Positions 3,300 to 35,639 of a stretch of DNA of 64,000 nucleotides are shown in pieces. Source of the DNA: Pseudomonadota bacterium. GTDB lineage: Bacteria > Pseudomonadota > Alphaproteobacteria > Micropepsales > Micropepsaceae. Below the pieces are notes generated by a model. The model saw nothing but the letters and a program-made list of their open reading frames with translations. It was not told where the DNA came from and did no database searches. A program made the position numbers and the translations under genes. The DNA is taken from the NCBI GenBank assembly GCA_018242105.1, contig JAFECP010000007.1, forward strand, positions 1 to 64,000, written 5' to 3'. Every line of letters starts with the position of its first letter. Position 1 is the stretch's first letter.

Positions 3300-3378
3300 T
3301 GTCTGTGAACACTCACGGTTGATACTTTTTTGTGCGCATATAGAGCCATCGACCGACAAGGAAAGGCCGCCTCCCGTG
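3300..3378. promoter_or_regulatory. Divergent sulfatase/LysR control region
   Basis: This 79-bp region must hold the promoters of both divergent genes. It contains a short perfect inverted repeat, GTGA-N4-TCAC, at 3305-3316, immediately upstream of the sulfatase start, which could be an operator half of a LysR site. A GGAAAGG ribosome-binding sequence at 3360-3366 precedes the LysR ATG at 3379 and supports that start. No convincing -35/-10 pair was found. Confidence 0.4.
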
Positions 3379-4332: not shown

Positions 4333-4350
4333 ACAGCAGGCATGGAGAAC

Positions 4351-6852: not shown

Positions 6853-6944
6853 TTTTGCGCCCCCTCTTTTGGCTCCTATAAAAGAGCCGTTCATTGACAG
6901 TAGCGCGGGTGGCGATGTTTCAAATTGATTTGTTTTTGGCTTAT

Positions 6945-6963
6945 CCATAACCTTCGATTATGG
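6945..6963. promoter_or_regulatory. Predicted LysR operator, CCATAA-N7-TTATGG
   Basis: A perfect 6+6 inverted repeat with a 7-base spacer. Its core reads T-N11-A, the classic LysR-family box. It overlaps the ATG of the LysR gene (6960-6962) and lies about 95 bp upstream of the divergent TonB receptor start, a position suited to autorepression and receptor control. The same 12 conserved bases with the same spacing recur at 7882-7900. Operator function is inferred. Confidence 0.7.
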
Positions 6964-7865
6964 ACTACAGGCATCTGCATCTGGTTGCGGAAATCTGCCG
7001 GCACGGCAGTTTCGGGCGAGCGGCGCGCGCGCTTGAGATATCCCAACCCGCCTTGAGCAAAAGCATTGCAAGGCTCGAAGACCAGCTTTGCGTCAAGCTG
7101 TTTGCGCGCGGCAATGGCAGGACCCAGCCCACGATATTTGCGCTTCATATCGTGGCCCGGTCGCGGCAAATGCTCGGAAATGCGGAAAAAATCGCCATCG
7201 AAGTCCGGCAAATGGCAATCAACGAAAAGGGGCGGATACGCATCGGAGCGGAACCTATTTCGCGCTTCGGTTTCCTGCCGTCACTGGTGGAAAGCGTTGT
7301 CGAAAACTTTCCCCAACTGCATCTGGAAATCGTAGACAGGCCGGGGACGGAGATTGTTCAAAGCCTTCTGGCGCGCGAGATCGACATCGGCATCACCGAT
7401 CTGATTGAATCGTCGACGGCTGCCGAGATCGTGACATTTCCGCTTTTCAAAAGCCCGGTTGTGGCGGTGGCTCGGCCCTTTCATCCCGTATTCGCCAAAG
7501 CGGGATCGCAAAAACCGGATGATTATCCCGTCGTGTTTTTGAGCGAGCCCTCTTCGCCGCCACACAACCCGAAAGCGAGCAGCGTGCTCGGCCCGGTCGA
7601 TTTGGTGCGGGAAATCGTGACGCGCACGGACGCGATTACGCGCGGACCGGCTTTCCTGTTTCGCGACGAAATCTCGCGCGGAACGCTCAAAAAGCTGCCG
7701 GAGCGCACAAGCGCTCGTTACGCATGCAATATATTGGCGACCGCGGGCGCCCTTCATTCACCGATCGTCACCAAGATCGTGCAATCCGCTCAAACTATCG
7801 CGAGAGGCATCGGAGCTAAGGCGCTGCCGAGACTTCCGCTTCAAAAGCGGGAGAAATCGCGTTGA
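6960..7865 (+). CDS. LysR-family transcriptional regulator
   Basis: 301 aa, starting with the standard LysR helix-turn-helix (MDYRHLHLVAEICRHGSFGR, then ALEISQPALSKSIARLEDQL). The effector domain follows from residue ~90. It stands divergent from the TonB receptor and is followed by the esterase operon. Matching inverted repeats at its own start codon and 140 bp upstream of the esterase suggest it controls both the receptor and the operon. A start inside the operator suggests it represses itself. The effector is unknown, presumably an ester substrate or its breakdown product. Confidence 0.93.
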   Translation: MDYRHLHLVAEICRHGSFGRAARALEISQPALSKSIARLEDQLCVKLFARGNGRTQPTIFALHIVARSRQMLGNAEKIAIEVRQMAINEKGRIRIGAEPISRFGFLPSLVESVVENFPQLHLEIVDRPGTEIVQSLLAREIDIGITDLIESSTAAEIVTFPLFKSPVVAVARPFHPVFAKAGSQKPDDYPVVFLSEPSSPPHNPKASSVLGPVDLVREIVTRTDAITRGPAFLFRDEISRGTLKKLPERTSARYACNILATAGALHSPIVTKIVQSAQTIARGIGAKALPRLPLQKREKSR

Positions 7866-7881
7866 ATTTTGTTTCTTCGCT

Positions 7882-7900
7882 CCATAACCCAAACTTATGG
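7882..7900. promoter_or_regulatory. Predicted LysR operator upstream of the esterase operon
   Basis: A second exact copy of CCATAA-N7-TTATGG, differing from the 6945 copy only in the spacer. The T-N11-A core is preserved. It lies 17 bp after the LysR stop codon and 140 bp before the esterase ATG, in a 175-bp gap that should hold the operon promoter. Confidence 0.68.
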
Positions 7901-8040
7901 GTAGCTGGAAAAGCATGAAAATATGGGCATTCCGCCAGCGGGTTCGCTGACGGCGGAAATCTTCCCTCTCTCGCGCTGGGCAAGGCCGCCCGCTAGCATT
8001 TTCCCAATGCGATAATCCGGGCGCCAGGGAAGAAGGGACA

Positions 8041-21156: not shown

Positions 21157-21408
21157 ATGAACGAGTCTGCGGATTATATCCAAACTGTCGTGACTGCCGC
21201 GCTTCGCGGGCTGCTGCCCGTGCCAGCCGAGCTTTCCGACAGCACCAACATCGTGCGCGATCTTGGCCTGGATTCGGTGACCGTGATGGATTTCGTGATG
21301 GAAACCGAAGAGCGCTTGGATGTTTCCGTCCCGCTCGATCGGATTTCGGCAGTCGAAACTATCGGCGATCTTGTCGCCACGTTATATGACTTAGAGTGCG
21401 AAAGCTGA
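21157..21408 (+). CDS. Acyl carrier protein dedicated to serine palmitoyltransferase
   Basis: 83 aa, a single phosphopantetheine-binding domain. The attachment site is in DLGLDSVTVMDF (Ser at about residue 40), followed by the acidic helix II. It is 3 bases upstream of the serine palmitoyltransferase gene. In sphingomonads and Caulobacter a specialised ACP encoded next to this enzyme supplies the acyl chain as acyl-ACP, and I infer the same role here. Confidence 0.92.
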   Translation: MNESADYIQTVVTAALRGLLPVPAELSDSTNIVRDLGLDSVTVMDFVMETEERLDVSVPLDRISAVETIGDLVATLYDLECES

Positions 21409-21411
21409 GCA

Positions 21412-22674
21412 ATGTCTCTGTTCGACAAGTTCAAGCCGCTGAGTGCGCAATATACCCGGTTAGAAGCATCCGGCGCCAACCCATTCGCTATCGCGTTCGA
21501 TCGGGTTCTATCGCCCACGGAAGCGATGATCGGAGACAGCCGTATCCTCCTGCTCGGCACCAACAACTATCTTGGCCTTACCTACGACACGAATATCATC
21601 GCAAAGACAATCGAAACGACGCAGGCGTTCGGAACCGGCACTACAGGATCGCGCATTGCCAACGGTAGCTACGACGGGCACAAGAAACTCGAACGCGCGC
21701 TAAAAGATTTCTACGGCCGCAAATACGCGATGGTTTTCTCGACCGGGTACCAGGCCAATCTCGGAATTATCTCGACACTCGCGGGGAAGAACGATCACCT
21801 GCTCCTCGATGCGGACTCTCACGCAAGCATTTACGACGGCTCGCGGCTTGGCCATGCGCAGGTCACCCGGTTCCGCCACAACGATCCCAACGATCTGCAC
21901 AAGCGGCTACGTCGCCTGGCTGACGTTCCAGGCGATAAGATCGTTGTTGTCGAAGGCATCTATTCGATGCTTGGAGACACGGCTCCGTTACGCGAGTTTG
22001 CGCAGGTGAAGCGCGAATGGGGCGCCTATCTCATTGTCGATGAGGCTCACTCGCTGGGCGTTCTCGGTGAAACCGGACGCGGCCTCGCCGAAATGCAGAA
22101 TGTCGAGTCCGAAGTGGATTTTGTCGTCGGCACCTTCTCAAAGAGTCTGGGAAGCGTGGGGGGATTTTGCGTTAGCAACCTCGATGATTTCGACATCCTG
22201 CGCGTCGCATGCCGGCCCTATATGTTTACCGCGTCGCTGCCACCCGGCGTGATCGCGGCAACGATGGAGGCGCTACACCAGTTGCGCATGCGGCCCGAAC
22301 TACGTCTCCGCCTGATTGAAAATGCGAGGCGGCTTTATGCCGGCCTGACTGGGCTGGGGTTCTGTCTTGGTCCGGAGCCGAGTCCGGTCGTATCCGCCAT
22401 CATGCCCGACCCCGAAACAGCTTTTGCCCTCTGGTCCGATCTTTTGAAAGCCGGCCTCTACACAAATGTGAGTCTGCCGCCGGCGACACCCAATGGATTG
22501 GCGCTGCTGCGGTCAAGTGTCAGCGCCGCGCACACGCCGCAGCAGATCGATCACGCTATCGCCCTGTTCGAACGGACAGGCCGCGCGCTGGGTCTGGTTG
22601 CCGCATTCACGGCTGCGCACACTTCACACCCTATAGCCGCGTCGCCGTCTCTAAGTGGCGCATCCTTGATGTAA
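21412..22674 (+). CDS. spt: Serine palmitoyltransferase (alpha-oxoamine synthase family)
   Basis: 420 aa, the same length as the Sphingomonas paucimobilis enzyme, which it resembles closely throughout. PLP-binding Lys is K244 in VVGTFSKSLGS; His137 (DADSHAS) stacks on the cofactor; D210 and H213 (VDEAHS) are in place, as are the signature stretches GTGTTGSR, RPYMFTASLPP and PPATPNGLALLRSS. It condenses L-serine with an acyl thioester to give 3-ketosphinganine, the committed step of sphingolipid synthesis. Other alpha-oxoamine synthases (KBL, BioF, HemA) lack several of these signatures. Ceramide synthase and 3-ketosphinganine or ceramide reductase are not in the window and must be elsewhere. 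Confidence 0.93.
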   Translation: MSLFDKFKPLSAQYTRLEASGANPFAIAFDRVLSPTEAMIGDSRILLLGTNNYLGLTYDTNIIAKTIETTQAFGTGTTGSRIANGSYDGHKKLERALKDFYGRKYAMVFSTGYQANLGIISTLAGKNDHLLLDADSHASIYDGSRLGHAQVTRFRHNDPNDLHKRLRRLADVPGDKIVVVEGIYSMLGDTAPLREFAQVKREWGAYLIVDEAHSLGVLGETGRGLAEMQNVESEVDFVVGTFSKSLGSVGGFCVSNLDDFDILRVACRPYMFTASLPPGVIAATMEALHQLRMRPELRLRLIENARRLYAGLTGLGFCLGPEPSPVVSAIMPDPETAFALWSDLLKAGLYTNVSLPPATPNGLALLRSSVSAAHTPQQIDHAIALFERTGRALGLVAAFTAAHTSHPIAASPSLSGASLM

Positions 22675-22845: not shown

Positions 22846-24135
22846 ATGTCTATGCGCCCCGTGAGTGCCCATCCTTTGAAAATTCTCTTTGCCTTCGAAA
22901 ATCCCCTGCCAAGCACCGAGGCAGACGCCGAAGTCTTCGTGACGACCGCGCGGTACCTCGCATCTGCGTTCAAGCAGACATGGTTTCACGTTCCCGCTTC
23001 GCGGCATGCGGATTACAACGCTATTGCCGTATTGACCGGCATGCCCGTGGTTCGTGCTATCGCGCCGGTACGGTCGGCGGCGCTGAGACATCTTCTTTGC
23101 GGACTGACGCTGGTATTCCGCAAGCAATTCCGCAACGCGGATCTCATCTACACCAGAAATCTCTGGATCGCCTGGATCGCGGTGAAATTCGGGCGGCGCG
23201 TCGTTTTCGATCATTACCGTCCCTGGCCCGATCAGATTCCGCCCTTGCAGCTCTGGATCTACCGGCTGATGTGCAATCGGCGATTTCTGATCAATATCTG
23301 CCATTCGGAATACACCCGGCAAAAATATCTGGCGCTCGGAATTCCACCGGACAAGCTTGTCTGTGTCCATAACGGCTTCGAGCCGAGGCGTTTCAGATCT
23401 CCACTTTCGTTGGAGAATGCAAAGCAGGCGATCGGTGTTTCACCTGCGACAAAAACCGTTGTCTATACGGGGCGCATAAATCGCAAGAAGGGATTGAGCC
23501 TTATACTGGAGGCCGCAAAGCGGCTGCCGGATATTCTCTTCATATTGGTAGGCTCCTATGGCGATGGGCCCATCGAGACGGTGGCCAAGGATATTCCCAA
23601 TATCCGTATCGTCCCGTGGCAACCGGAGGAGGCAGTCTCCCGGTATGTGTTCGCCGCAGATATTTTGCTCATCCCACCATCGTCACAGCCTTTGGCAGAG
23701 TTCGGATCGACGGTCTTGCCGCTAAAGCTCTTTTCCTACATGGCTTCGGGGCGGCCCATTCTTGCGGGCGACACGCCGGATTTGCGTGAAATTCTGAAGC
23801 ACGAGGAAAACGCTTTTCTTTGCAGCGCTGACAGTCTGGAGTCTCTGACTGCTGGAATTAGGACGCTGATCGACGATGCCGGCTTGGCGGAACGCCTCGC
23901 CAGACAGGCACTTGCCCAAAGCCGCGACTTTACATGGGAGGCACGCGCCCGGACGATTGCAGCCATTATTGAAAACCGCCTTTGCTCCGTCCCGGAGCGA
24001 AGCGGCACATGGAGCCGCGCGCAATCCCGCAACTGGTTACGTCAATCGCGGCGCTGGCTGATATATCTGATCTGGCGGCGATCATGGATTCTCCCGCCAA
24101 CCTCGCCGTCCACCGCAGGTGCGCCGCAGGCGTGA
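22846..24135 (+). CDS. GT4-family glycosyltransferase
   Basis: 429 aa, GT-B fold. The C-terminal donor domain shows VVYTGRINRKKGLSLI, the PWQPEEAVSRYVFAADILLIPPS segment and the EFGSTVLPLKLFSYMASGRPIL stretch with the donor-contacting Glu region. The N-terminal acceptor domain begins at LKILFAFENPLP. A basic Trp/Arg-rich tail (residues ~395-418) could hold it on the membrane surface. It follows spt by 171 bp and is followed 4 bases later by a flippase, so it probably adds a sugar to a lipid acceptor. Neither sugar nor acceptor can be read from sequence. Confidence 0.88.
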   Translation: MSMRPVSAHPLKILFAFENPLPSTEADAEVFVTTARYLASAFKQTWFHVPASRHADYNAIAVLTGMPVVRAIAPVRSAALRHLLCGLTLVFRKQFRNADLIYTRNLWIAWIAVKFGRRVVFDHYRPWPDQIPPLQLWIYRLMCNRRFLINICHSEYTRQKYLALGIPPDKLVCVHNGFEPRRFRSPLSLENAKQAIGVSPATKTVVYTGRINRKKGLSLILEAAKRLPDILFILVGSYGDGPIETVAKDIPNIRIVPWQPEEAVSRYVFAADILLIPPSSQPLAEFGSTVLPLKLFSYMASGRPILAGDTPDLREILKHEENAFLCSADSLESLTAGIRTLIDDAGLAERLARQALAQSRDFTWEARARTIAAIIENRLCSVPERSGTWSRAQSRNWLRQSRRWLIYLIWRRSWILPPTSPSTAGAPQA

Positions 24136-24139
24136 CGAT

Positions 24140-25582
24140 ATGGACAGCCATCGCCAGCACCTGAGTCGCGGCTTCAACTGGCTTGGTGGCGCAACCATCA
24201 TCGCCAAGATCATCGACTTCTCGACAATCCTTGTCGTGCTGCTGTTTCTCACCAAAGAGCAGGTCGGCATTGCATCTCTGGTCGTCTCGATCGGTATGAT
24301 CATCGAAGCGTTCGATGGTTTGGGCACCGCCGACGCGCTGGTCCAGGCGCCATCTGTCTCCCGGCTTCAACTCGATACACTGTTCTGGTTTATCGTCGGT
24401 GCCGCTTTGGTGGTCGCCGCACTTACGCTGCTTGCTGCGCCATGGATTGCAGTGATCTATGGCGCTGCAGGAATGGCGACATATTTCCTCGCCATCGCTG
24501 CAAAGCAGCCCCTTGTCGCTGCCGCGGTGATTCCGCTGGCGGTCATGAACCGAAACCTGCAGTTCGAGCGCATCGCCATCGTCAATGTTTGCGCGACCTT
24601 CGGCGCCGCAATGACGCGGTTTGGCTTGGCAATCGCTGGCGCGGGCGCGTGGGCGCTGGTTGCGGGCTACACGGCGAGCGGCCTTTTCCTGTTGCTCGGC
24701 GCCTCGCTCGCCAGCCCATTCAAACCGAGGCTGCGATTTCACATGCCCGCGATCGCACCACTGCTGCATTTCGGAATCCGCGCTGGCACCTCCAATATCG
24801 TCGAACAGGTTTTCAAGAATGTCGATTATCTGCTGATCGGCTGGTTTTATGGGCCGGCGCCGCTGGCAATCTATCTTGTAGCCTTCGAGGTTGCGATGGA
24901 GCCCGCCATGGCGATCGGCACACTTGTCAATCGAACGGCGCTGCCCGTGTTTGCGAAGATCGCGGCGATGAAAGATCAGCTTTCTCAGGCCCTCATCTGG
25001 TCGGTAGGCCGGATTGCAACGCTCGTGGCGCCGCTGATGATGGGGCTAATTCTTGTCGCGAACCCGCTTATGGCGCTGCTTCACGATGGTCAGGGGCATA
25101 GTTATGCGGCTGCGGCACTGCCTCTCAAGCTGCTTGCTGGCGCGGCGCTGCTGCGCGTTATTTCACAGATTCTCTATCCGCTGATGATGGCCACCGGGCG
25201 CCCAGGATCGGCAGCCCGGCTATCGGCTGCAACGTTGATTCTGCTCACTATGGGCATTGCAGCAGCCGGGCTCAGTTTTCCGGCAAAAAACGGCATTATT
25301 GCCGTGTCTGTAGTCTGGTTCAGCGTCTATCCCGTCCTCATCATCTGGGGTATCCGCCATTTGCGAGCGCACTGGAACATTCGGGCCGCGGATTTCCTGC
25401 AAGTGTTCGGTGTGCCCGCTGCCGGCATCTGCGCATTGGCCGGAATGGTCGAAATCGGCCGGCTCTTTATCCCAAGCGGCGATTTGAAGATTCAAACCGG
25501 CCTTGTTCTGGCGGCTGCGGCGTTGACTTATGCCGGGCTGTTTCTGCGCACCCGCTATCGCCGGCCTATGCCGGCGATGTGA
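24140..25582 (+). CDS. MOP-superfamily lipid/oligosaccharide flippase (Wzx/WzxC-like)
   Basis: 480 aa from the ATG at 24140, 4 bases after the glycosyltransferase stop; an earlier GTG at 24119 would overlap it. About 12-14 membrane segments and the Wzx/MATE-like opening GFNWLGGATIIAKIIDFSTIL, with NVDYLLIGWFYGPAPLAIYLVAFEV in the middle, place it with polysaccharide-biosynthesis flippases. These move lipid-linked sugars from the inner to the outer leaflet of the inner membrane. Here the cargo may be a glycosylated sphingolipid. Its 3' end overlaps the convergent radical SAM gene by 17 bp. Confidence 0.88.
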   Translation: MDSHRQHLSRGFNWLGGATIIAKIIDFSTILVVLLFLTKEQVGIASLVVSIGMIIEAFDGLGTADALVQAPSVSRLQLDTLFWFIVGAALVVAALTLLAAPWIAVIYGAAGMATYFLAIAAKQPLVAAAVIPLAVMNRNLQFERIAIVNVCATFGAAMTRFGLAIAGAGAWALVAGYTASGLFLLLGASLASPFKPRLRFHMPAIAPLLHFGIRAGTSNIVEQVFKNVDYLLIGWFYGPAPLAIYLVAFEVAMEPAMAIGTLVNRTALPVFAKIAAMKDQLSQALIWSVGRIATLVAPLMMGLILVANPLMALLHDGQGHSYAAAALPLKLLAGAALLRVISQILYPLMMATGRPGSAARLSAATLILLTMGIAAAGLSFPAKNGIIAVSVVWFSVYPVLIIWGIRHLRAHWNIRAADFLQVFGVPAAGICALAGMVEIGRLFIPSGDLKIQTGLVLAAAALTYAGLFLRTRYRRPMPAM

Positions 25583-26597
25583 CCCCTTCCGGTGCGACAC
25601 CCGCAGTGGCAACCGGATCGGGAATCGTCTGCGCTCCGCGGTAACGATCGAACATGCTCATTTGGTGAACGCAGCTCAAGGTGCAGGATGGGCTGCACGT
25701 TTTCTCCGTGTTGAATTCGCGGCGAATATCGTCGCGAGTATATTCGAGCAGTGGAATTCCCGGATAGCCACGCTGCTGCGAGCACCAATGCACCTTGCCG
25801 TCCTCGCAGATATACAAATAGCGCGCGCCCGCCCTGCACTTCCAGTCATTGGTCAGGCCGTGCATCAGGTTTTTCTGGAACAGCCAGTAATTCAGGCTAT
25901 GCACCATGGACGGCGAAATCTTCGTGACCTGGGTGTAGGCGTTCATCTGCGCTGGGCTGAGGGGTTTCAACGTTCCAGTGCCGTCGTGCAAAACGCCGAC
26001 AGAATGTTGCAGACCGTATTTTGCCGCCGTCTCTGCAACCGTCACGACATCCTGCGTGCGCTCGCCGCTCACACCGAGGACGGAGTTCACATTGACTTTG
26101 AATTTGGCGTGTTGCGAAAGCAATCCGAGTTTTCGTTCCACAGATGAGAGGCTCTTCATCGATACGGCGTCGGGCTTGAGATTATCGATGCTGATTTGCA
26201 TGCCTTGTAGATCGGCCGCGTTGAGCCGGTCGATCCAGGCTCGGGTCAAGCGGAACCCGTTGGTGATCATCGTTACGATCATGCCGTGATTGCGTGCTGC
26301 GCGAACCAGCTTATCGAGGTCCGGGTGTAGCAGCGGTTCGCCGCCGGTGAAGGTGACGGAGGCGGTCTTTAGCGCAGCAAGATGATCGATGCGCGCGAGC
26401 AGAGCATCCCGTGGAACGGGCGGAGAAAAATCATCGTACTCGTTGCAGTATCCGCAACTCAGGTTGCAGCGCCGGGTGACGACGATTTGGGCCAGCAGCG
26501 GGTTGTACCGCGAACCGACCGCACGGGCGAGAAACCGCGCACCGGAACTCAGTCCTCCGAGCCGGCGAGAGATAGGTGTGATATTGGCGGCTGTCAT
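25566..26597 (-). CDS. Radical SAM enzyme with SPASM-like C-terminal cysteines
   Basis: 343 aa from the ATG at 26597 (an in-frame start at 26666 is possible but less likely). The radical SAM cluster is C44-x3-C48-x2-C51 in TRRCNLSCGYCNEY, followed by TFTGGEPLLHPDL. Six further cysteines at 254, 264, 272, 301, 305 and 309 form a SPASM-like pattern for an auxiliary Fe-S cluster. It modifies an unknown substrate by radical chemistry. Placement with PIG-L and a glycosyltransferase on one strand suggests modification of the same glycolipid. It is not HpnH, whose N-terminal signature is absent. Confidence 0.88.
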   Translation of the reverse strand: MTAANITPISRRLGGLSSGARFLARAVGSRYNPLLAQIVVTRRCNLSCGYCNEYDDFSPPVPRDALLARIDHLAALKTASVTFTGGEPLLHPDLDKLVRAARNHGMIVTMITNGFRLTRAWIDRLNAADLQGMQISIDNLKPDAVSMKSLSSVERKLGLLSQHAKFKVNVNSVLGVSGERTQDVVTVAETAAKYGLQHSVGVLHDGTGTLKPLSPAQMNAYTQVTKISPSMVHSLNYWLFQKNLMHGLTNDWKCRAGARYLYICEDGKVHWCSQQRGYPGIPLLEYTRDDIRREFNTEKTCSPSCTLSCVHQMSMFDRYRGAQTIPDPVATAGVAPEGVTSPA

Positions 26598-26680
26598 TCG
26601 GTCACTCTGAAGAAGCTTACGCGGTCCCGCAAAAGCAGGCCAGTTGATAGCATTCCGGCACATCAAACATAGTTACGGAA

Positions 26681-27475
26681 TTACAACACGAGCAACTGCC
26701 TGCGCGCGCCGCGCCATGGCGGTGGCCACCATCTGAGACCCGCGACATCCAGAAGCCACTCCCCAGACAGAGGCAATCGTGGCTGCAGATTGGCGGAGCA
26801 AGGCTGGGCATAGAGCATCTCTTCGGCCGGCCAGCGATGGGCGCGCGTCCAGGTCCAGGCGCCGTTGCGCGCGTAAACCCGCATCAGGGCGCGCGCCGTA
26901 GCGGTATCGGGGCGGACGGCACGGCGTTGCGCCCAGCAAGGCTGGCCGGCGATCTGTTGCACCAAAGGCCAGCTCGCGGCTCCGGCATAATTGGTAAACC
27001 AAATCGTGTATCCGAGTTCGGCCTGCAACGCGGTAACCGCGCGATAGACCTGGATATGGTCGGGATGACCGTACTCGCCCCATGGATTATGCGTGTGGAC
27101 CGCATCGCATCCGGCCAGAGCCGTTCTTAGTCCCTCAATCAGCGAGCCGTAATTGTCTTCGTAACGAACGCAAGCTGCGGGATCGGTGATCGCGATGCCG
27201 AATTGCGTAAGCTGTGGCCGCGCCCAGTCTACAAAAAATCTCGTGCCACTTTCGGGCAGGGCAAGATTGAGGAGCCCTTGCAGGGGGAGCGCAGAAACCG
27301 CACGCCGCCGCGCAGCGGCTTTTTTCGATTCTCCGAACTGGTCGCCGAAACAAAAGACAATGCGATCCACCGACGACAACACCGAGCTGAACCAGAGGCT
27401 CTCATCGTCGGGATGGGCGACAACCAGCGCGGCTCGATGCGGTGGGAATGCTATGTCATTGCTATTTTGCACCCG
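26681..27475 (-). CDS. PIG-L family N-acetyl sugar deacetylase
   Basis: 264 aa from a GTG at 27475, preceded by GACGAGG; an in-frame ATG at 27544 would overlap the upstream glycosyltransferase by 83 bp. The zinc-site motif AHPDDE lies at residues 19-24 and the second motif HTHNPWGEYGHPDH around residue 120. PIG-L enzymes deacetylate N-acetylglucosamine linked to inositol (GPI and mycothiol synthesis), or GlcNAc on antibiotics and bacillithiol precursors. An inositol-phosphate synthase 6 kb away makes a GlcN-inositol product attractive. It overlaps the upstream GT4 gene by 14 bases, so it is co-translated with it. Confidence 0.88.
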   Translation of the reverse strand, partial: RVQNSNDIAFPPHRAALVVAHPDDESLWFSSVLSSVDRIVFCFGDQFGESKKAAARRRAVSALPLQGLLNLALPESGTRFFVDWARPQLTQFGIAITDPAACVRYEDNYGSLIEGLRTALAGCDAVHTHNPWGEYGHPDHIQVYRAVTALQAELGYTIWFTNYAGAASWPLVQQIAGQPCWAQRRAVRPDTATARALMRVYARNGAWTWTRAHRWPAEEMLYAQPCSANLQPRLPLSGEWLLDVAGLRWWPPPWRGARRQLLVL

Positions 27476-28595
27476 GCAAAACCTCGTCGTAGAGATCTTC
27501 GAGGATCTCCGTTTGCCTCCGGATGTCAAACCGCTGTTCGACAAGTGCGCGCGCCTGCGCGCCCATGCGAAGACGCCTGGCGGGATCGCTCAAAAGATCG
27601 TCCATCCGCCGGGTCAGTGCCTCGACGTCCCGTTCGGGCACCAGAAAGCCGGTGTCCTTATCAATAACGCCTTCCGGTATCCCGCCAATGCGTGAAGCGA
27701 CGACCGGTATCCCCGTGGCCGCAGCTTCCAGCAGGACCATACCCAGCCCTTCCACACGCCCCGTGATTGTCCGGACACTCGGCAGAACCAGCATCGTTGC
27801 CCGGCGCATATGTGCCAAGACTTCACCGTGGGCCTGCGCGCCCAAGAAATGCACACGCGCTTCCAAACCCAAAGACCCCGCGAGCGCTTGAAGAGGCCGC
27901 CTGCGGGGGCCATCCCCGATAATGACGAGGTCAACATCCGTGTGCTTCAACGCAAGGGCCCCGAACGCCCGGATAAGATATTTGGTGCCTTTGACGTCCG
28001 CCAGCCGCGCGACATGCAGGATCGTCCGCGTTTCCTCCGAAGGATCGCGCGGCGCAATCGCGCGCCAATCCACGCCGATATAGTGTGTTCGCGTGCGTGC
28101 TTCCGGAAAGCCCAGCGCCAACACGCGATCGCGGATGAATGACGAGGCGCAAAGGAATAAGGCGCCTTGTTGCGCAAGATCCCGCCGGTACAGCGGATAA
28201 TTCATCCACGCGGGCGACGACAGCAGCGCGGCGGTCGATAGCGTTGCATCGAAGCCATGGAATGTCGTCACCAGCGGAATTTGCAGCCGCTTCGCCAGTG
28301 GAAGCGCATACACACCCTCAATGCCAAAATGCGCATGGATGAGCGCCGGGTGGCGCCCTCGGAGCAGGCTTCGATAGGGGGCGGGATTGCGCGACAGCAT
28401 CTGTTGCCCAATGCGCAGATACGCCCCTGGCCCGAGATCATCCAGTGCCAAAGACTCGGCGCCTGCCGGCGGTTGACCGTAGCGCATCCGCCCCAGATAG
28501 AACGGCTTATAGCGGCGCAGTTTTTGCGCCTGTTGAACGATGAACGGCTCCGATATTTTAAACAGATTATGACGGAATATTATAATTTCGCGCAC
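27462..28595 (-). CDS. GT4-family glycosyltransferase
   Basis: 377 aa, GT-B fold. N-terminal acceptor domain with AHFGIEGVYALPLAKRL and TTFHGFDAT; C-terminal donor domain with ILHVARLADVKGTKYLI, VIIGDGPRRRPLQALA and the EGLGMVLLEAAATGIPVVAS stretch holding the conserved E-x7-E. It resembles colanic-acid type WcaL/WcaK-like transferases and, more distantly, GlcNAc-transferring MshA and PIG-A. Being cotranscribed with PIG-L suggests it installs the GlcNAc that PIG-L then deacetylates. Donor specificity is inference only. Confidence 0.88.
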   Translation of the reverse strand: MREIIIFRHNLFKISEPFIVQQAQKLRRYKPFYLGRMRYGQPPAGAESLALDDLGPGAYLRIGQQMLSRNPAPYRSLLRGRHPALIHAHFGIEGVYALPLAKRLQIPLVTTFHGFDATLSTAALLSSPAWMNYPLYRRDLAQQGALFLCASSFIRDRVLALGFPEARTRTHYIGVDWRAIAPRDPSEETRTILHVARLADVKGTKYLIRAFGALALKHTDVDLVIIGDGPRRRPLQALAGSLGLEARVHFLGAQAHGEVLAHMRRATMLVLPSVRTITGRVEGLGMVLLEAAATGIPVVASRIGGIPEGVIDKDTGFLVPERDVEALTRRMDDLLSDPARRLRMGAQARALVEQRFDIRRQTEILEDLYDEVLPGAK

Positions 28596-28678: not shown

Positions 28679-29161
28679 ATGCGGAAATCGATGAAGTTTC
28701 TCGTGCCGGCTGCGCTGCTATCACTCTTTTCGGCCTGGCAGCCAGCACGGGCCGATACGTCCATAGCTTGCAACGAAGCCGACCCCACCCAGGTACGCTT
28801 GCGAGTCAGCGTCGCCGGAATGCGCTCAGACGAGGGCAACATCACAATCACAATCTACCCTGACGATGCGGCCCACTTTTTGGACGGAAAATACAAGCTC
28901 GCCCGGCAAAGCGTGCCGGTAAAATTGCCATTGACGCGCGCATGTTTCGCAGTTGCGGCACCCGGCTTCTACGCTGTGGCGCTTTTTCATGACGAAAACA
29001 ACAACCATCACCTGGACACCAATTTTCTCGGAATTCCGACAGAGGGATACGGCTTCTCCCAGAACCCCAAACTCTTCCTGGGTCCGCCAAAATTGAGCCA
29101 GGTGCGCATTGCCGCCCATCCCGGCGACAATCCTGTCGCTATCCGTATGGCATATTATTGA
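28679..29161 (+). CDS. Secreted DUF2141 protein
   Basis: 160 aa with a signal peptide (MKFLVPAALLSLFSAWQPARA). The mature part is a compact beta-sandwich type domain recognised by VRVSVAGMRSDEGNITITIYPD-like spacing, FYAVALFHDENNNHHLDTNFLGIPTEGYGFS and an ending rich in small residues. DUF2141 proteins are periplasmic and uncharacterised. The D-x-N-x-N-x-x-L-D run resembles a calcium-binding loop. It is divergent from the GT4/PIG-L operon and 196 bp upstream of the LptF-like gene. Confidence 0.85.
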   Translation: MRKSMKFLVPAALLSLFSAWQPARADTSIACNEADPTQVRLRVSVAGMRSDEGNITITIYPDDAAHFLDGKYKLARQSVPVKLPLTRACFAVAAPGFYAVALFHDENNNHHLDTNFLGIPTEGYGFSQNPKLFLGPPKLSQVRIAAHPGDNPVAIRMAYY

Positions 29162-29357: not shown

Positions 29358-30506
29358 ATGGCGTGCGCCTTGATCATCAACCGCTATTTGATCCGAGAGA
29401 TCAGCAAGCCGCTTGCGACCATCCTTATCGTTCTTGTGACTCTATTCGCGAGCTACAGTGCCGCCGAATTTCTTTCGGATGCCGTCAACGGGCTGCTGCC
29501 GACAAACACGATCGGAGAAATGATAGGCCTCAAAGCGTTGATCTCACTGGAAGTATTGATACCGGTTTCTCTCTATATCTCAGTCATTCTGTCGTTTGGA
29601 AAGCTGTATAGCGACTCCGAATTTACGGCGATGTTCGCATTGCGCGTGACCCCCGCAAGGATCATGGGATCGGTTCTCACTCTGTCGGGGGCACTGGCCG
29701 TTCTTGTGGCTCTGTTATCGCTGTTCGCGCGGCCTTGGGCGTATGAGAAATTGCACGCGCTTTCAAAGCAAGCCGAAGCCTTCGCCAATGTCGATAACAT
29801 GCAGGCCGGCACGTTCTATATCGCTGAAGATGGAGGCCGGGTCATATTCCTGAAACATCGCGATGGCCCGAAATCCACGGCCAGCGACGTATTCGTGCAG
29901 TTGATCTATCCCAATCGCACTCGAATTCTTTTTGCACGGCATGCCTACCAGCTTCCGGAGGCCGGCGGCCGCGACCGTTCGGAAATCCATTTGAGCGATG
30001 CCCATCTTTACGATATCGGACGTGAAAAGGGTCAACCTGACAGTGTGGTGGACGCACAGGGGATTATTCTGAGATCTCCGGATCCAAGTCTCGAACAGCC
30101 CGAATACAGTTCGGTCAGCGCCGGCACGGAGACGCTTGCGATTTCAAGCAAGCCTCCAGATATCGCGGAGTTCCAATGGCGGCTATCCACCCCACTTTCG
30201 ACAATTCTGCTTGGCATGCTCGCCGTGCCGTTGAGTCGCATAAGGCCGCGGCAAAGCCGATATGCGAAGATGGGAGCAGCAGCTCTGATTTATTCTGGCT
30301 ACTATCTGTTGTTCACATCCGCGCGCACATGGGTTCAGCAAAGCGCGGTCGCAGCTTTTCCGGGCATCTGGTGGGTTCCCGCGTCGCTTGCAGCGGTGGT
30401 GGCCATCATCTGGGTCCGGCCATATCTGGGCTTTGAATTGAGGCGGCTGCGCATGCGCTTTAACACATGGCATGCGCACTGGTTCGGTGGCCGTGACACG
30501 GCTTGA
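29358..30506 (+). CDS. LptF-like (YjgP/YjgQ family) permease
   Basis: 382 aa. Three or so N-terminal membrane helices, a periplasmic beta-jellyroll domain (~residues 130-260) and three C-terminal helices, the standard LptF/LptG layout. FEFTAMFALRVTPARIMG-like text (SEFTAMFALRVTPARIMGSV) is the coupling-helix motif facing the ABC ATPase. In LPS export, LptFG with LptB extract lipid from the inner membrane and pass it to the periplasmic bridge. This copy sits in a sphingolipid/glycolipid locus beside a partner permease but with no LptA, LptB, LptC or LptD gene, so I infer an LPS-like exporter for another lipid. Confidence 0.88.
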   Translation: MACALIINRYLIREISKPLATILIVLVTLFASYSAAEFLSDAVNGLLPTNTIGEMIGLKALISLEVLIPVSLYISVILSFGKLYSDSEFTAMFALRVTPARIMGSVLTLSGALAVLVALLSLFARPWAYEKLHALSKQAEAFANVDNMQAGTFYIAEDGGRVIFLKHRDGPKSTASDVFVQLIYPNRTRILFARHAYQLPEAGGRDRSEIHLSDAHLYDIGREKGQPDSVVDAQGIILRSPDPSLEQPEYSSVSAGTETLAISSKPPDIAEFQWRLSTPLSTILLGMLAVPLSRIRPRQSRYAKMGAAALIYSGYYLLFTSARTWVQQSAVAAFPGIWWVPASLAAVVAIIWVRPYLGFELRRLRMRFNTWHAHWFGGRDTA

Positions 30507-31575
30507 CCGGTACATCGCGGCGGCAACGCTCAGTGGCGTCCTGTTGGCCGCCACGGCGTTGACCTTGCTGTTCAGCTTGCTGGAATTTGTCGAACAGCTC
30601 AGTTCGGTCGGCCAAGGCAACTACCGTCTGATCGACGATTTTTTCTACGTTCTGCTCACGATTCCGTCGCGCGTGCTCCAGGTAACGCCCGTATCGATGC
30701 TGATAGGCTGTCTGCTGTCGTTGGGCGCGCTCGCCGATACCTCAGAACTTACGGCGCTGCAATCGCTTGGCATGTCCGAACGGCGGATCATAGGCTCCGT
30801 TCTCGCGCTTGCGTGCCCGATCATCATCGCTCTGTTTTTGATAGCGCAGTTTGTGATTCCGCCAACGCAACAATTCGCGGAAAGTCAGCGCGCATCGAGG
30901 TTATCGCCATCTGCGTCGGTTCGCAGCGCAGACAGCTTTTGGGGCGAAGGCAACCGTCAATATCTTAATGTGCAGCGATTTGAACATGGCAACATTCCGA
31001 GAAACATCAATATTTACGCCTTCTCGCCGGAAGGGCGCCTGACAAGTGCAATCCGCGCGAACCGCGCGGAGATTCGGCCGGACGGGACATGGCTTCTCAC
31101 CGGCGTGGTGCGTAAGCGCGTTCTTTCCTCCCAATTCCAGACGGACCATCCGGCTTCGCTAGTCTGGCACTCTTTTTTGCCCCCCAATCGTGTCCAGCAG
31201 TTGCTCATGTCACCCGACACTATGGCGCCTGTCGAATTGTATCTATACATTCGCGATCTCAGCCGCAGGCACCAGCAGGCTTCACGCTATGAACAGGAAT
31301 TGTGGGCCAAGATCGCCATTCCGTTTTCGATCGTTGCCATGATCCTGATCGCCGCGCCGTTTTTGTTCGGCGCCGTGCGAGCGCATGGCACAGGCCAGCG
31401 CATTGTCATCGGTGTCGGCATCGGAATCGTGTTTTCGCTTGTCCAGCAAATTGCGGGCCGCTTGGATTTGCTGCTGGATCTAAACCCCGCGGTGATCGCT
31501 TTGACGCCTTCGCTTCTGCTCATGGCGCTGGCGGTCTATCTCTTTCTGCGGATGCACCGGCCTCGCAGAGGATAG
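30472..31575 (+). CDS. LptG-like (YjgP/YjgQ family) permease
   Basis: 367 aa, partner of the preceding permease. The N-terminal helices, the coupling motif TSELTALQSLGMSERRIIGSV, a periplasmic domain (~130-260) and three C-terminal helices are visible. The ATG at 30472 overlaps the preceding gene by 35 bases; GTG codons at 30487 and 30493 are alternative starts that would begin nearer RLDRYIAA. The pair forms the membrane part of a lipid exporter. Whether it serves LPS, or the sphingolipid inferred for this locus, depends on whether another lptFG pair exists in the genome. Confidence 0.87.
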   Translation: MRTGSVAVTRLDRYIAAATLSGVLLAATALTLLFSLLEFVEQLSSVGQGNYRLIDDFFYVLLTIPSRVLQVTPVSMLIGCLLSLGALADTSELTALQSLGMSERRIIGSVLALACPIIIALFLIAQFVIPPTQQFAESQRASRLSPSASVRSADSFWGEGNRQYLNVQRFEHGNIPRNINIYAFSPEGRLTSAIRANRAEIRPDGTWLLTGVVRKRVLSSQFQTDHPASLVWHSFLPPNRVQQLLMSPDTMAPVELYLYIRDLSRRHQQASRYEQELWAKIAIPFSIVAMILIAAPFLFGAVRAHGTGQRIVIGVGIGIVFSLVQQIAGRLDLLLDLNPAVIALTPSLLLMALAVYLFLRMHRPRRG

Positions 31576-31576
31576 A

Positions 31577-32500
31577 TTATTTCACGGTCTCCAGCTCCCG
31601 CAAAAACCGCTTGTAGCGCGCGGACTGGCGGGAAAGAAGAATGGCGAGAATTGCGCTGAAACCGAAAATCTCGAACAAAAAATAGTATTGGGGCACTGAC
31701 AGAGCCGCGCAGATGAATATTCCGATAGTGCGATAGTTGGCGGATAGGATAGACCATCGCCGAACCGCCGGCGCGAACGTTTCGCGATATCGCGCACGGA
31801 GGGACGCCGCTTGTGCGGGCTCCTCCTTCAGGCATGCGGCCATCTTTTCGTCGAAGCCGGCGGGTACACCGGCAACCCTCAACTGGACACCAACATAGAG
31901 CCGGTTGAGCATATGCATGACGCGCGTGGGAAAATATGCCGTAGGCACATCCGGCAGCGGCGCGTTGAGCGCCAAAAGCGCCGCCGATTTTCGGTCCATG
32001 CCCCAATACTCATATTCCTGCCTTTGCACCTCATAGGCGGCCGACTGAACGGCATGGCAGACCCCAGCGGAAATGGCGAGTATCCATATCCATCCTCCGA
32101 ATTGGACGCTAAGCGCCAGCGCAAGGGCAGAATAAACAGCGACAAACGTCGTGTAATCGCAAATCCCGTCGATAACTTTTCCAAACTCGGACTGCGAATT
32201 CGTGAGACGTGCAAGCTGCCCATCCGTCCCATCCATGATGTGCCACAGGATCATCAGCACGAAGCCGGCAACCACCCATCGCACGTCTTGATAGCGGTAG
32301 TAGGAGATCGCCGCCAATATCCCAAACGCCATCCCCGCAAAGGAAACGGCATTGGGAGAGACATGCAGGTCCGCCAGCAATGGCGTCAGGCGGCTCGATA
32401 CTGGATGAATGAAATAGAGGTTGGTTATCTCTTCGATGTCCGACGTGCGCCGGATGGGCTCACCGTGCTTCCCCTCTCTCACACGAGTCGAAACCGTCAA
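31577..32500 (-). CDS. CDP-alcohol phosphatidyltransferase
   Basis: 307 aa from a TTG start that overlaps the preceding stop (TTGA); GTG at 32482 is an alternative. The full signature D-G-x2-A-R-x8-G-x3-D-x3-D is present with D90, D93, G94, A97, R98, G107, D111 and D115, in the form DGTDGQLAR. It is an integral membrane enzyme that transfers a phospho-alcohol between a CDP-activated molecule and an alcohol. Being the last gene after inositol-phosphate synthase and a nucleotidyltransferase, it probably joins phosphoinositol to a lipid. Either CDP-inositol or CDP-diacylglycerol could be its activated substrate. Confidence 0.92.
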   Translation of the reverse strand: MTVSTRVREGKHGEPIRRTSDIEEITNLYFIHPVSSRLTPLLADLHVSPNAVSFAGMAFGILAAISYYRYQDVRWVVAGFVLMILWHIMDGTDGQLARLTNSQSEFGKVIDGICDYTTFVAVYSALALALSVQFGGWIWILAISAGVCHAVQSAAYEVQRQEYEYWGMDRKSAALLALNAPLPDVPTAYFPTRVMHMLNRLYVGVQLRVAGVPAGFDEKMAACLKEEPAQAASLRARYRETFAPAVRRWSILSANYRTIGIFICAALSVPQYYFLFEIFGFSAILAILLSRQSARYKRFLRELETVK

Positions 32501-33213
32501 AGCAGCCCCGTTTCAAGAAGTCTCTCGGCCTTTCCGAACGCCGCGGGATCGTCAACATCGATCCACACCCGGTCCTGAATGTCGAATGTGCGCGCCTTGT
32601 TCCGGCGCGCAAGCACGTTCATTGCGCCCGAGATGCTGTCGTCTCCGCCCGCCTGACTTTCTTCGAGCGCGTCGAACATGGCGGGAGTGCAAAGAAAGAG
32701 GCCCGTATCCAATGCGTTGAAGTCTCGGATGACTTTGCCGATGTGATGGATGAAACCGCCCGAACACTTGACGCGCGTGACGTCCTCCAAATCGTTGAGC
32801 TGCCGGTCGATGTTGAAATCGACCGCCAGCGTAACAGTATCCGGCTCGGCCGGCACAGACATCAGACGGCGAAATATCTCCGGATCGAGCAAATGATCGC
32901 ACATGGTGAGCAGAAAGGGCTCATTCAGATAGGGTTTCGCTTTGAGCACGGAGAGGCCATTCGCGCGGTCCCAGCTTTCATTGACGATATGATCGATACG
33001 AAGGTTTTCCCGCGCCGAAAACGCGTCGAGCTCCATGCGAAGCTCATCGCCCCTATAGCCACTGACGACCCAGAACGCGTCCACGCCACCGCTACGCGCC
33101 CGCTTGATCACGCGTTCAATCAATGGAACGCCCTTGATTTCGATCAAGGGCTTAAGCTGGCCTTTTTCTCTGAGCCTGGCACCTTGCCCTGCGGCAACAA
33201 TAAGACACTTCAC
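32497..33213 (-). CDS. Nucleotidyltransferase, probable inositol-1-phosphate cytidylyltransferase
   Basis: 238 aa from a GTG that overlaps the synthase stop (GTGA). NTP-transferase fold: LIVAAGQGARL with K21-P22-L23 for nucleotide binding, VVSGYRGDEL, and a metal-binding Asp in LTMCDHLLDP. The family activates sugar or polyol phosphates. Archaeal and thermophile enzymes of this type make CDP-inositol and are fused to a CDP-alcohol transferase; here the two halves are separate adjacent genes downstream of inositol-phosphate synthase. The CDP-inositol assignment is inferred from that parallel, with mannose-1-phosphate-type activation as the alternative. Confidence 0.88.
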   Translation of the reverse strand: MKCLIVAAGQGARLREKGQLKPLIEIKGVPLIERVIKRARSGGVDAFWVVSGYRGDELRMELDAFSARENLRIDHIVNESWDRANGLSVLKAKPYLNEPFLLTMCDHLLDPEIFRRLMSVPAEPDTVTLAVDFNIDRQLNDLEDVTRVKCSGGFIHHIGKVIRDFNALDTGLFLCTPAMFDALEESQAGGDDSISGAMNVLARRNKARTFDIQDRVWIDVDDPAAFGKAERLLETGLL

Positions 33214-34340
33214 AAAACAGCCAGCATTTTCGCGGTGTGCGTCCGGATGAAAGCCTCGATCATATCGTAGGCGTCATCGTCCGAGTATTGCTTGGCCGGA
33301 TGTTTGCAAAAATAGGCGCTTGGCGCCTCAAGCACTCCGCCAACGCCGCTCTGAAGCGCCAGTTTGCAGCACCGGATCATGTCGATCACGACGCCTGCGG
33401 AATTGGGCGAATCCTCTACCGACAGCCGCAATTCCAGATCCATCGGAACATCCCCGAACAAATGCCCTTCCATTCTCAGGAAGCAGATCTTGTTGTCGTT
33501 TTGCCATGGCACATAGTCGCTCGGACCTACATGGATGTTCTCGTCCTCGATGCGGCTCTTTGCGACCGACTGCACGGCTTCGGTTTTGGATGTCTTTTTG
33601 GACACCAGCCGCGTCTGGTTCTTCATGTTGAGGAAATCGGTATTGCCGCCGGTATTCAACTGATATGTCCGCAGCAACTTTACCCCGCGCTTTGCGAACA
33701 GATCTGTCAGAACGCGATGTGTGATTGTGGCGCCAAACTGGGACTTTATGTCGTCTCCAATGATCGGAAGATTGCGCGCCTTGAACCGGTCCGCGAAAGC
33801 CTTGTCGCTGGCGATGAACACCGGCATGTTGTTAATGAAGGCGACGCCGGCTTCCAGGGCGCATTCCGCATAAAAGCGCGCGGCCTGTTCCGATCCGACA
33901 GGAACATAATTGAGCAGGATTTCGGCCCCGCTGTTTTTCAGCTCGCGAACGATTTCCGCCTTCGTCAATTCCTTTGCACTGGAGCGGACGAAGGTTCTGT
34001 CTTCGGCATAATCCGCCATGTGTTCGGAAATGCCGTCGAGCACCGGCCCCATGCGCACGATCACACCCGCCGACGGGATATCCCTTTGAAAAATCTTTGT
34101 GCAATTTGGCTTGGAGAAGATCGCCTGGCTTATGTCGGTGCCCACCTTGCGGGCATCGACGTCGAACGCCGCAACGACTTTGATGTCACACGGCAGATAG
34201 CCGCCGATATCCGCATGCATCAGACCGGTAACCCCCCGGCGGCAGCGTTCTGCGGTGTAATAGTGAATGCCTTGAACGAGAGAGCTGGCGCAGTTTCCTA
34301 CGCCGGCGATCGCGATCCGGATGCTACCCTTCTTTGCCAT
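33210..34340 (-). CDS. ino1: myo-Inositol-1-phosphate synthase
   Basis: 376 aa, the short actinobacterial/archaeal type rather than the ~500-aa eukaryotic form. Clear family blocks: IAGVGNCASSLVQGIHYY (NAD binding), VVAAFDVDARKVG, NYVPVGSEQAARFYAECAL, PIIGDDIKSQFGATITHR, LNTGGNTDFLNM and SKTEAVQS. It converts glucose-6-phosphate to L-myo-inositol-1-phosphate using NAD. It heads a three-gene operon with GTGA and TTGA overlaps, so inositol phosphate, its activation and its transfer are translationally coupled. An AAGGGA ribosome-binding site precedes the ATG. Such a gene is unusual in this group unless inositol lipids or osmolytes are made. Confidence 0.95.
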   Translation of the reverse strand: MAKKGSIRIAIAGVGNCASSLVQGIHYYTAERCRRGVTGLMHADIGGYLPCDIKVVAAFDVDARKVGTDISQAIFSKPNCTKIFQRDIPSAGVIVRMGPVLDGISEHMADYAEDRTFVRSSAKELTKAEIVRELKNSGAEILLNYVPVGSEQAARFYAECALEAGVAFINNMPVFIASDKAFADRFKARNLPIIGDDIKSQFGATITHRVLTDLFAKRGVKLLRTYQLNTGGNTDFLNMKNQTRLVSKKTSKTEAVQSVAKSRIEDENIHVGPSDYVPWQNDNKICFLRMEGHLFGDVPMDLELRLSVEDSPNSAGVVIDMIRCCKLALQSGVGGVLEAPSAYFCKHPAKQYSDDDAYDMIEAFIRTHTAKMLAVL

Positions 34341-34652: not shown

Positions 34653-35639
34653 TTAAATAGCGTCCGGCAGATGACAAATGCAGGCGCAGACGAGCGCACT
34701 ATACAATTGGCAGTTTTTGTGCTCCCGCACATAGTCTGGCGTAATCTGTCCGACGCGGGATTTTGTCCGGATAGAGGCATACCAGTGCACGACGCGGGTT
34801 TCCGGCAATAAAACCTCTCTTAATCGCACGGTCCGGACAATTCGGAACCAATGCTCAGAAATTTCGGGCGGCAAAGGATAAAATGTGTCTGGCTCGCAAA
34901 CGGTCAAATCCTGTCCGCGATAGCGATCGACGACCTCCTGCAACAGGTCGGGGCCAAGCCCATAAAGCTGCATTTTAGACTCAGACGCCTTGGCAACCAT
35001 TGCCTTGAGGTAGTCGGAAAAAAACGGCGCGCCCGCTTGCGCCCCCATTACGCCATTGCAGAAACCACGAAAATAGAATTTCTCGATCCGCCGGAAAAAT
35101 GCCCATCCGTTTGGCAGATGCCGCAATATTTTGCGCGCGACATCGAGAGTAAGATGCCGCGCCCACACTACGGGCGAAATCGATTTCCGCACGGAATCTG
35201 GCCACACTATAAGTTCAGCTCCGATGAATTGCCGATTATCAAGCAGCGGCTTCAGGGAGGCGGTGGTGATCGTGTCCATATCCAGGTACACCCCTCCCTG
35301 CATGTAGAGGATCGCCGCCCGCAGAATATCCGCCCGCATCACCGGGCTATCGAGGTGGCGGTAAAGCGCCGCCAGTTCGCCGCCGGAGCCGAGCGCCCGC
35401 TCTGTCTCGGCCAAATATGCAAGCGCATCGATTCGGGAGAGCCGCACGCGGGGCGCGTTCTTGAGCGCGCGCAATTCAGCGCCGTCTTCGATGATATCGG
35501 TGTGATGAAGAATAATTTCTGGCAGCTCACTTCGCTCCGCCGCCGACAGGATGGCGAACACATAGGCCCAGGGCAGCCTGTTACCGATCCAGCAGAAATG
35601 TGCTCGGGCGGGGATCAATACGCGGCCTGCCCGGCCCAT
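34653..35639 (-). CDS. GT32-type glycosyltransferase (DXD sugar transferase)
   Basis: 328 aa. The N-terminus IPARAHFCWIGNRLPWAYV and the block SPVMRADILRAAILYMQGGVYLDMD with D120-x-D122 are the hallmark of the glycosyltransferase sugar-binding DXD family related to yeast Och1. Retaining GT32 enzymes use sugar nucleotides such as GDP-mannose. In yeast, the mannosyltransferases Sur1/Csh1 that act on inositol phosphorylceramide belong to this family, which fits its neighbourhood. No signal peptide or membrane segment is obvious apart from a hydrophobic C-terminal stretch. It is on the same strand as the inositol operon, 312 bp upstream of it. Confidence 0.85.
   Translation of the reverse strand: MGRAGRVLIPARAHFCWIGNRLPWAYVFAILSAAERSELPEIILHHTDIIEDGAELRALKNAPRVRLSRIDALAYLAETERALGSGGELAALYRHLDSPVMRADILRAAILYMQGGVYLDMDTITTASLKPLLDNRQFIGAELIVWPDSVRKSISPVVWARHLTLDVARKILRHLPNGWAFFRRIEKFYFRGFCNGVMGAQAGAPFFSDYLKAMVAKASESKMQLYGLGPDLLQEVVDRYRGQDLTVCEPDTFYPLPPEISEHWFRIVRTVRLREVLLPETRVVHWYASIRTKSRVGQITPDYVREHKNCQLYSALVCACICHLPDAI

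Follow-up and report, generated by a model that had tools for sequence, protein, structure and literature searches.

A locus of about 14 genes of sphingolipid type lies in a 64,000-nucleotide stretch of contig JAFECP010000007.1 (GenBank assembly GCA_018242105.1), here called the window, from a soil alphaproteobacterium of the Micropepsaceae, and inside it sit adjacent genes for a GT4 glycosyltransferase (GT4a), a PIG-L/LmbE-type de-N-acetylase (PIG-L) and a radical S-adenosylmethionine (SAM) enzyme. We think it probable that this locus makes, for export, an inositol-phosphosphingolipid bearing sugar, on which an N-acetylhexosamine added by GT4a is deacetylated by PIG-L. In the pathway that we propose, ceramide would be made by serine palmitoyltransferase (SPT) and its acyl carrier protein together with AasR and CerS, whose genes are in another part of the genome. 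myo-Inositol-phosphate synthase (MIPS) would supply inositol phosphate, an enzyme resembling inositol-1-phosphate cytidylyltransferase (IPCT) would convert it to CDP-inositol, and a CDP-alcohol phosphotransferase would combine CDP-inositol with ceramide to give inositol-phosphoceramide. GT4a would then place an N-acetylhexosamine, most likely N-acetylglucosamine (GlcNAc), on the inositol, and PIG-L would remove the acetyl group to leave a free amine. Other glycosyltransferases might extend this head group, and a flippase and the LptF/LptG permeases would turn the lipid over and deliver it to the outer membrane. All of this chemistry, including which sugar is used and which acceptor receives it, is inferred from the genes; what we observed is the anatomy of the locus, the linkage of its genes, a conserved PIG-L active site and the nesting of gene content.

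To determine how widely this arrangement is conserved, we scanned 84,980 species genomes with a PIG-L alignment and obtained 80 loci, of which 39 encode a PIG-L of ~49% identity or more (cluster-type loci) and 41 a more distant one. GT4a is immediately upstream of PIG-L, in the same orientation, in 39 of 39 cluster-type loci, which is far from chance, with a gap of −25 to +62 nt between the GT4a stop codon and the first aligned PIG-L residue. Wherever the flanks are untruncated (16 loci), GT4a and PIG-L are accompanied by MIPS, IPCT, the CDP-alcohol transferase, SPT and the carrier protein; other members are LptF/LptG (15 of 16), a second GT4 enzyme, GT4b (15 of 16), the flippase (13 of 16), a Gly_transf_sug glycosyltransferase (11 of 16) and the radical SAM enzyme (5 of 16). 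A further 16 loci are on contigs without a full MIPS gene, and 11 of those genomes carry a cluster-type MIPS elsewhere. None of the 41 distant PIG-Ls is beside SPT or MIPS. The hosts include Rhizomicrobium, Acidocella, Nitrospirillum, other Acetobacteraceae, some gammaproteobacterial metagenome-assembled genomes (MAGs) and one Geothrix MAG, an occurrence that could be a binning error.

Gene content across related genomes looks nested. Among 96 genomes of the window's order, SPT occurs in six, cluster-type MIPS in four and PIG-L in three, each set inside the preceding one. The fourth MIPS genome (82% complete, its locus read from two contigs joined by inference across a split lptG) carries MIPS, IPCT, the CDP-alcohol transferase, LptF/LptG, SPT, AasR, CerS and the flippase without GT4a, PIG-L or the radical SAM gene, and a DUF2141 gene abuts the flippase gene at their expected site. 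Cluster-type IPCT and PIG-L occur in the same three genomes, from three families, in a class-wide sample of 385, and in 249 Acetobacteraceae genomes we found IPCT in 21, cluster-type PIG-L in 13 and both in 12; the only PIG-L genome without IPCT (G484) is a fragmentary MAG. The Fisher values (4e-14 for this co-occurrence in Acetobacteraceae, and 1e-7) ignore kinship and serve only as a guide. Of the nine IPCT-only Acetobacteraceae, four have the inositol core and GT4b with no GT4a (L161–L164), and three have GT4a followed directly by the radical SAM gene with no PIG-L. Thus, the core occurs without GT4a, GT4a occurs without PIG-L, and PIG-L practically never occurs without the core. PIG-L tracks GT4a and GT4a tracks the core, as expected of a pathway in which inositol-phosphoceramide synthesis precedes the GT4a step and deacetylation comes last. 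A first-pass annotation of the window had treated the GT4 and PIG-L genes as a unit linked to inositol-phosphate genes, a view borne out by their adjacency in every cluster-type locus and by the presence of IPCT in 3 of 3 and 12 of 13 PIG-L-positive genomes in the two samples.

The genes of the locus in the window, with profile matches and occurrence in the 39 loci, are as follows.

21157–21408, + strand: acyl carrier protein, acpR type (PF00550, E = 3e-12); beside spt in the window, as in 30 of the 39 loci
21412–22674, + strand: SPT, first step of sphingolipid synthesis (NF047599, 667 bits, cut-off 500); 31 of 39 loci
22846–24135, + strand: GT4b, WcaI-like (PF00534, E = 1e-17); 26 of 39 loci
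24119–25582, + strand: MOP/Wzx-type flippase (PF13440, E = 1e-50)
25566–26666, − strand: radical SAM enzyme with a SPASM/twitch-like cysteine tail, an optional member (PF04055, E = 8e-20); 12 of 39 loci
26681–27472, − strand: PIG-L/LmbE-type de-N-acetylase (PF02585, 34.4 bits, cut-off 28.2); GTG start at 27472, stop at 26681
27462–28595, − strand: GT4a, predicted N-acetylhexosaminyltransferase (PF00534, Glycos_transf_1, E = 1e-42)
28679–29161, + strand: DUF2141 protein, probably exported (PF09912, E = 5e-30); seen again in related loci
29358–30506, + strand: LptF-like permease, presumably for the sphingolipid (PF03739, E = 1e-53)
30472–31575, + strand: LptG-like permease (PF03739, E = 2e-70)
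31577–32500, − strand: CDP-alcohol phosphotransferase, predicted inositol-phosphoceramide synthase (PF01066, E = 6e-15)
32497–33213, − strand: IPCT-like cytidylyltransferase, predicted to make CDP-inositol (full-length match to Archaeoglobus fulgidus IPCT, 2xme)
33210–34340, − strand: MIPS (PF01658, E = 7e-36; TIGR03450, 431 bits, cut-off 638)
34653–35639, − strand: Gly_transf_sug (DXD-type) glycosyltransferase, right-hand end of the locus (PF04488, 38.9 bits, cut-off 23); 15 of 39 loci

The GT4a, PIG-L and radical SAM genes are genuine open reading frames, each with a significant Pfam match, and MIPS lies 4.6 kb from GT4a, inside the 6 kb given by the first-pass annotation. The reported overlap of GT4a and PIG-L is real, although, counted from the GTG start, it spans 11 bases and not 14. 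The DUF2141, LptF and LptG genes, on the + strand, separate the GT4a group from the inositol genes, both of which are on the − strand. DUF2141 genes are also present in sphingolipid loci of both the inositol and the Caulobacter-like kind, and the protein may take part in transport.

Against the PDB, the IPCT-like protein matched a characterized CTP:inositol-1-phosphate cytidylyltransferase best and over its full length (2xme, E = 3e-17, residues 1–231; 4mnd, E = 1e-16); its best NCBIfam model, the two-domain NF041135, scored 114.6 bits, below the cut-off. The CDP-alcohol transferase has a complete DxxDGxxAR(x8)Gx3Dx3D motif with invariant columns, and its closest PDB entry is AF2299, with phosphatidylinositol (PI)-phosphate synthases also matched. 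Together, the IPCT match and the intact transferase motif predict that inositol phosphate is activated as CDP-inositol, from which inositol-phosphate is passed to a lipid alcohol. The IPCT-like protein also resembles the enzyme for the osmolyte di-inositol-phosphate, a product that we rejected because Lpt genes and SPT are present in the locus and SPT is carried by 10 of the 11 tested genomes with a cluster-type IPCT, compared to 0 of 4 with a distant IPCT. Clusters of distant IPCT, MIPS and CDP-alcohol transferase genes occur in other Alphaproteobacteria (L136, L138, L139, L141 and L142); the genomes tested, three of five (G110, G322 and G241), are without SPT and probably make another inositol lipid or a solute. 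Separately, seven genomes of the window's order (G043, G004, G001, G003, G018, G061 and G042; L010–L016 and L022–L027) have a second, distant MIPS (~50–58% identical), which in G001, G018 and G042 is near a BioF/SPT-like gene and a short-chain dehydrogenase/reductase gene and perhaps marks another inositol-lipid locus.

As in bacterial sphingolipid loci, SPT is accompanied by an acyl carrier protein, and the genome also encodes CerS and AasR; these two names come from resemblance to the Caulobacter locus and from Pfam matches (GNAT and AMP-binding), not from a curated model. Contig C14 of the same genome (L115, positions 1362–7913) carries AasR, acpR, a second SPT (80% identical) and CerS, suggesting that the cluster brings its own SPT into a genome seemingly already able to make ceramide. 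In the Nitrospirillum viridazoti locus (L042, 1517–17600), MIPS, acpR and spt are each present in two copies. The Caulobacter ceramide-phosphoglycerate pathway is marked by the ceramide kinase CpgB and by CpgA; in our locus we saw no kinase gene, and the genome was not searched for one. SPT, the acyl carrier protein, CerS, AasR and LptF/LptG are the grounds for predicting a sphingolipid. Were the CDP-alcohol transferase instead to join CDP-inositol to diacylglycerol, the product would be PI and, after GT4a and PIG-L, a true glucosaminyl-PI like that of glycosylphosphatidylinositol (GPI) anchors. This chemistry has been proposed for a related gene set of some Bacteroidetes (PMC9246714), and the matches to AF2299 and the PI-phosphate synthases are compatible with it; nevertheless, all 16 full-flank loci encode SPT and its carrier protein within them, and SPT follows cluster-type and not distant IPCT, making a glycerolipid a rather improbable product.

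The PIG-L protein belongs to the PIG-L/LmbE superfamily by its PF02585 score and by its metal/catalytic motif: HPDDE and both histidines of HPDH/HPEH (H136 and H139) are invariant in 36 sequences. In a tree, 40 cluster PIG-Ls fall on one side of a branch with support of 97/97, apart from 41 relatives without such a context. An AlphaFold2 model (pLDDT 90.6) has the PIG-L fold; Foldseek returned MshB as the closest structure (E = 8e-7), and VIA-align placed glycopeptide deacetylases first (Dbv21, Z 14.7, rmsd 3.8, 186 residues aligned) and MshB next (Z 13.2). These matches are PIG-L-fold deacetylases acting on several substrates, with no single substrate picked out. For GT4a (pLDDT 93.3), the closest solved folds are BshA and MshA, both GlcNAc-transferases onto small acidic acceptors. 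The modeled folds of the two enzymes fit a GT4a and PIG-L acting in succession on the inositol lipid and leave the choice of substrate undecided. Assigning the GT4a donor and acceptor through family models failed, as EpsE, stp2, BshA and WcaL scored about equally.

The likeness to MshA and MshB, which are among the closest solved folds, raises the question of a soluble, mycothiol-like glucosaminyl-inositol thiol. Membership of the pair in the MshA and MshB families fails, as GT4a scored 98.5 bits against the MshA equivalog cut-off of 462.5 (TIGR03449) and PIG-L 23.6 bits against the MshB cut-off of 224.35 (TIGR03445); GT4a was also below the BshA cut-off (TIGR03999, 123 compared to 273.7 bits). 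The locus is, moreover, full of lipid genes. MshC was over its cut-off in 0 of 12 cluster-bearing or related genomes and, as a control, in 1 of 14; the model gave one weaker match per genome, as in most controls, which fits cysteinyl-tRNA synthetase. Mycothiol is ruled out at the genome level by the MshC result, in agreement with the first-pass annotation, and we consider any thiol of this kind extremely unlikely.

The radical SAM protein of the window has the CX3CX2C motif (C67/C71/C74) and a CX9-15GX4C tail of the SPASM type (C277-X12-G290-X4-C295). Six additional cysteines had been described, a count that is right for the window protein; the set conserved over 17 orthologues is five (277, 295, 324, 328 and 332). 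The gene is missing from Acidocella loci and, in the three Acetobacteraceae noted above, stands beside GT4a without PIG-L. Because it accompanies GT4a with or without PIG-L, the enzyme does not depend on the free amine. By analogy with some radical SAM enzymes that act on sugars, we would guess at oxidation or epimerization of a sugar or cyclitol.

Several points weigh against the pathway proposed here. The lipid itself is predicted from the genes, and the CDP-alcohol transferase could take diacylglycerol or another acceptor. Several GT4 families match GT4a alike, making its donor and acceptor unreadable from sequence. In addition, GT4b is present in some inositol loci that have no GT4a, and GT4a might therefore act on a sugar already in place and not on inositol. 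Under that alternative, inositol-phosphoceramide would be made and GlcNAc added to another sugar, for example one placed by GT4b or the Gly_transf_sug enzyme, before deacetylation, giving a longer glycan. Two further glycosyltransferases are usual in the loci, L161–L164 have GT4b with the inositol core and without GT4a, and there is a parallel in sphingomonad GSL-4A, in which glucosamine is linked to glucuronic acid. The Gly_transf_sug enzyme itself had only weak PDB matches (top, initiation-specific alpha-1,6-mannosyltransferase, E = 0.06). However, L055, L063, L064 and L065 have GT4a and PIG-L but no nearby GT4b, and among the glycosyltransferases GT4a varies least, being in all 16 full loci compared to 15 for GT4b and 11 for Gly_transf_sug; we therefore judge a longer glycan unlikely, and the simplest reading has the sugar attached to inositol itself.

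The last point against our pathway concerns ancestry: the nearest PIG-L outside the cluster group (L067, 9054–11853) is flanked by two GT2 glycosyltransferase genes in a sugar locus, making descent from a surface-polysaccharide system possible. If function had followed such an ancestry, GT4a and PIG-L would decorate a polysaccharide or lipopolysaccharide (LPS) made beside the inositol lipid and not on it, as the likeness of GT4a to exopolysaccharide GT4s and the Wzx-like flippase might also suggest. Yet the GT4a/PIG-L pair was not found without inositol genes, save in truncated MAGs, and most loci share no further gene family, for example no polysaccharide polymerase. We regard this explanation as quite unlikely.

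The inositol-phosphosphingolipid pathway that we favor combines known kinds of system, bacterial inositol sphingolipid synthesis and the logic of GPI or glycosyl-inositol-phosphoceramides. To our knowledge, inositol sphingolipids are rare in bacteria. In plants and fungi, glycosyl-inositol-phosphoceramides are a product class like the one predicted here, with sugar on inositol-phosphoceramide; eukaryotes transfer the inositol-phosphate from PI and use other sugar enzymes, whereas CDP-inositol is the predicted source in our locus. In eukaryotic GPI synthesis (PIG-A and PIG-L), analogous in logic, a GT4 enzyme puts GlcNAc on an inositol-phospholipid and a PIG-L-fold enzyme deacetylates it, but the lipid is PI where ours is a predicted ceramide, and we identified no protein-attachment genes here. 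The core idea of the first-pass annotation, glucosamine on an inositol head group, remains the best explanation, and its GPI-like head group stands as an analogy, with a lipid predicted to be ceramide and with enzymes below the MshA/MshB cut-offs; for a sphingolipid, the closest analogue is a glycosyl-inositol-phosphoceramide and not a PI-based GPI. Mycothiol synthesis (MshA and MshB) also adds GlcNAc to inositol phosphate and then deacetylates it with enzymes of related folds, but GT4a and PIG-L, far below the equivalog cut-offs, without MshC and with a lipid as predicted product, are analogues and not members of that set.

The Caulobacter crescentus phosphosphingolipid locus (CC_1168–CC_1152; PMC11324152) shares SPT, an acyl carrier protein, CerS, AasR, a second LptF/LptG, a potential flippase (CC_1166), a CDP-alcohol transferase and a head-group nucleotidyltransferase. 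Its head group is phosphoglycerate, whereas MIPS and IPCT point to inositol in our locus, which has GT4 and PIG-L in addition. An alternative inositol-lipid cluster of Bacteroidetes combines MIPS, an NTP transferase and a CDP-alcohol transferase in a CDP-inositol route that is itself a proposal; the cluster includes a HAD hydrolase, and the part of PMC9246714 describing it does not name the GT4/PIG-L pair, SPT or Lpt genes as members. In the literature searched, which covered few subscription journals, we found no description of a proteobacterial inositol-phosphoceramide bearing an amino sugar or of such a locus, and none of a glucosaminyl-inositol lipid built by GT4 and PIG-L outside actinobacterial mycothiol and eukaryotic GPI.

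In its fullest form, and as a tentative proposal that we hold less likely than the pathway itself, the locus would be a bacterial counterpart of the GPI and glycosyl-inositol-phosphoceramide core: a glucosaminyl-inositol-phosphoceramide made through CDP-inositol and extended by further sugars, which dedicated Lpt proteins would carry, once flipped, to the outer leaflet, where it would accompany or replace LPS. It would have arisen separately from its eukaryotic counterparts, with gene transfer spreading it among soil- and plant-associated Proteobacteria. Since the cluster is present in several cultured bacteria (Acidocella aromatica DSM 27026, A. aminolytica, A. facilis and Nitrospirillum), the predicted lipid can be sought directly. 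The gene-by-gene prediction of its chemistry, the culturable hosts and the natural variants without PIG-L or GT4 make an independent bacterial lipid of this type directly testable. There would also be consequences for outer-membrane stability and for sensitivity to cationic peptides if an anionic lipid of that membrane carried a free amine.

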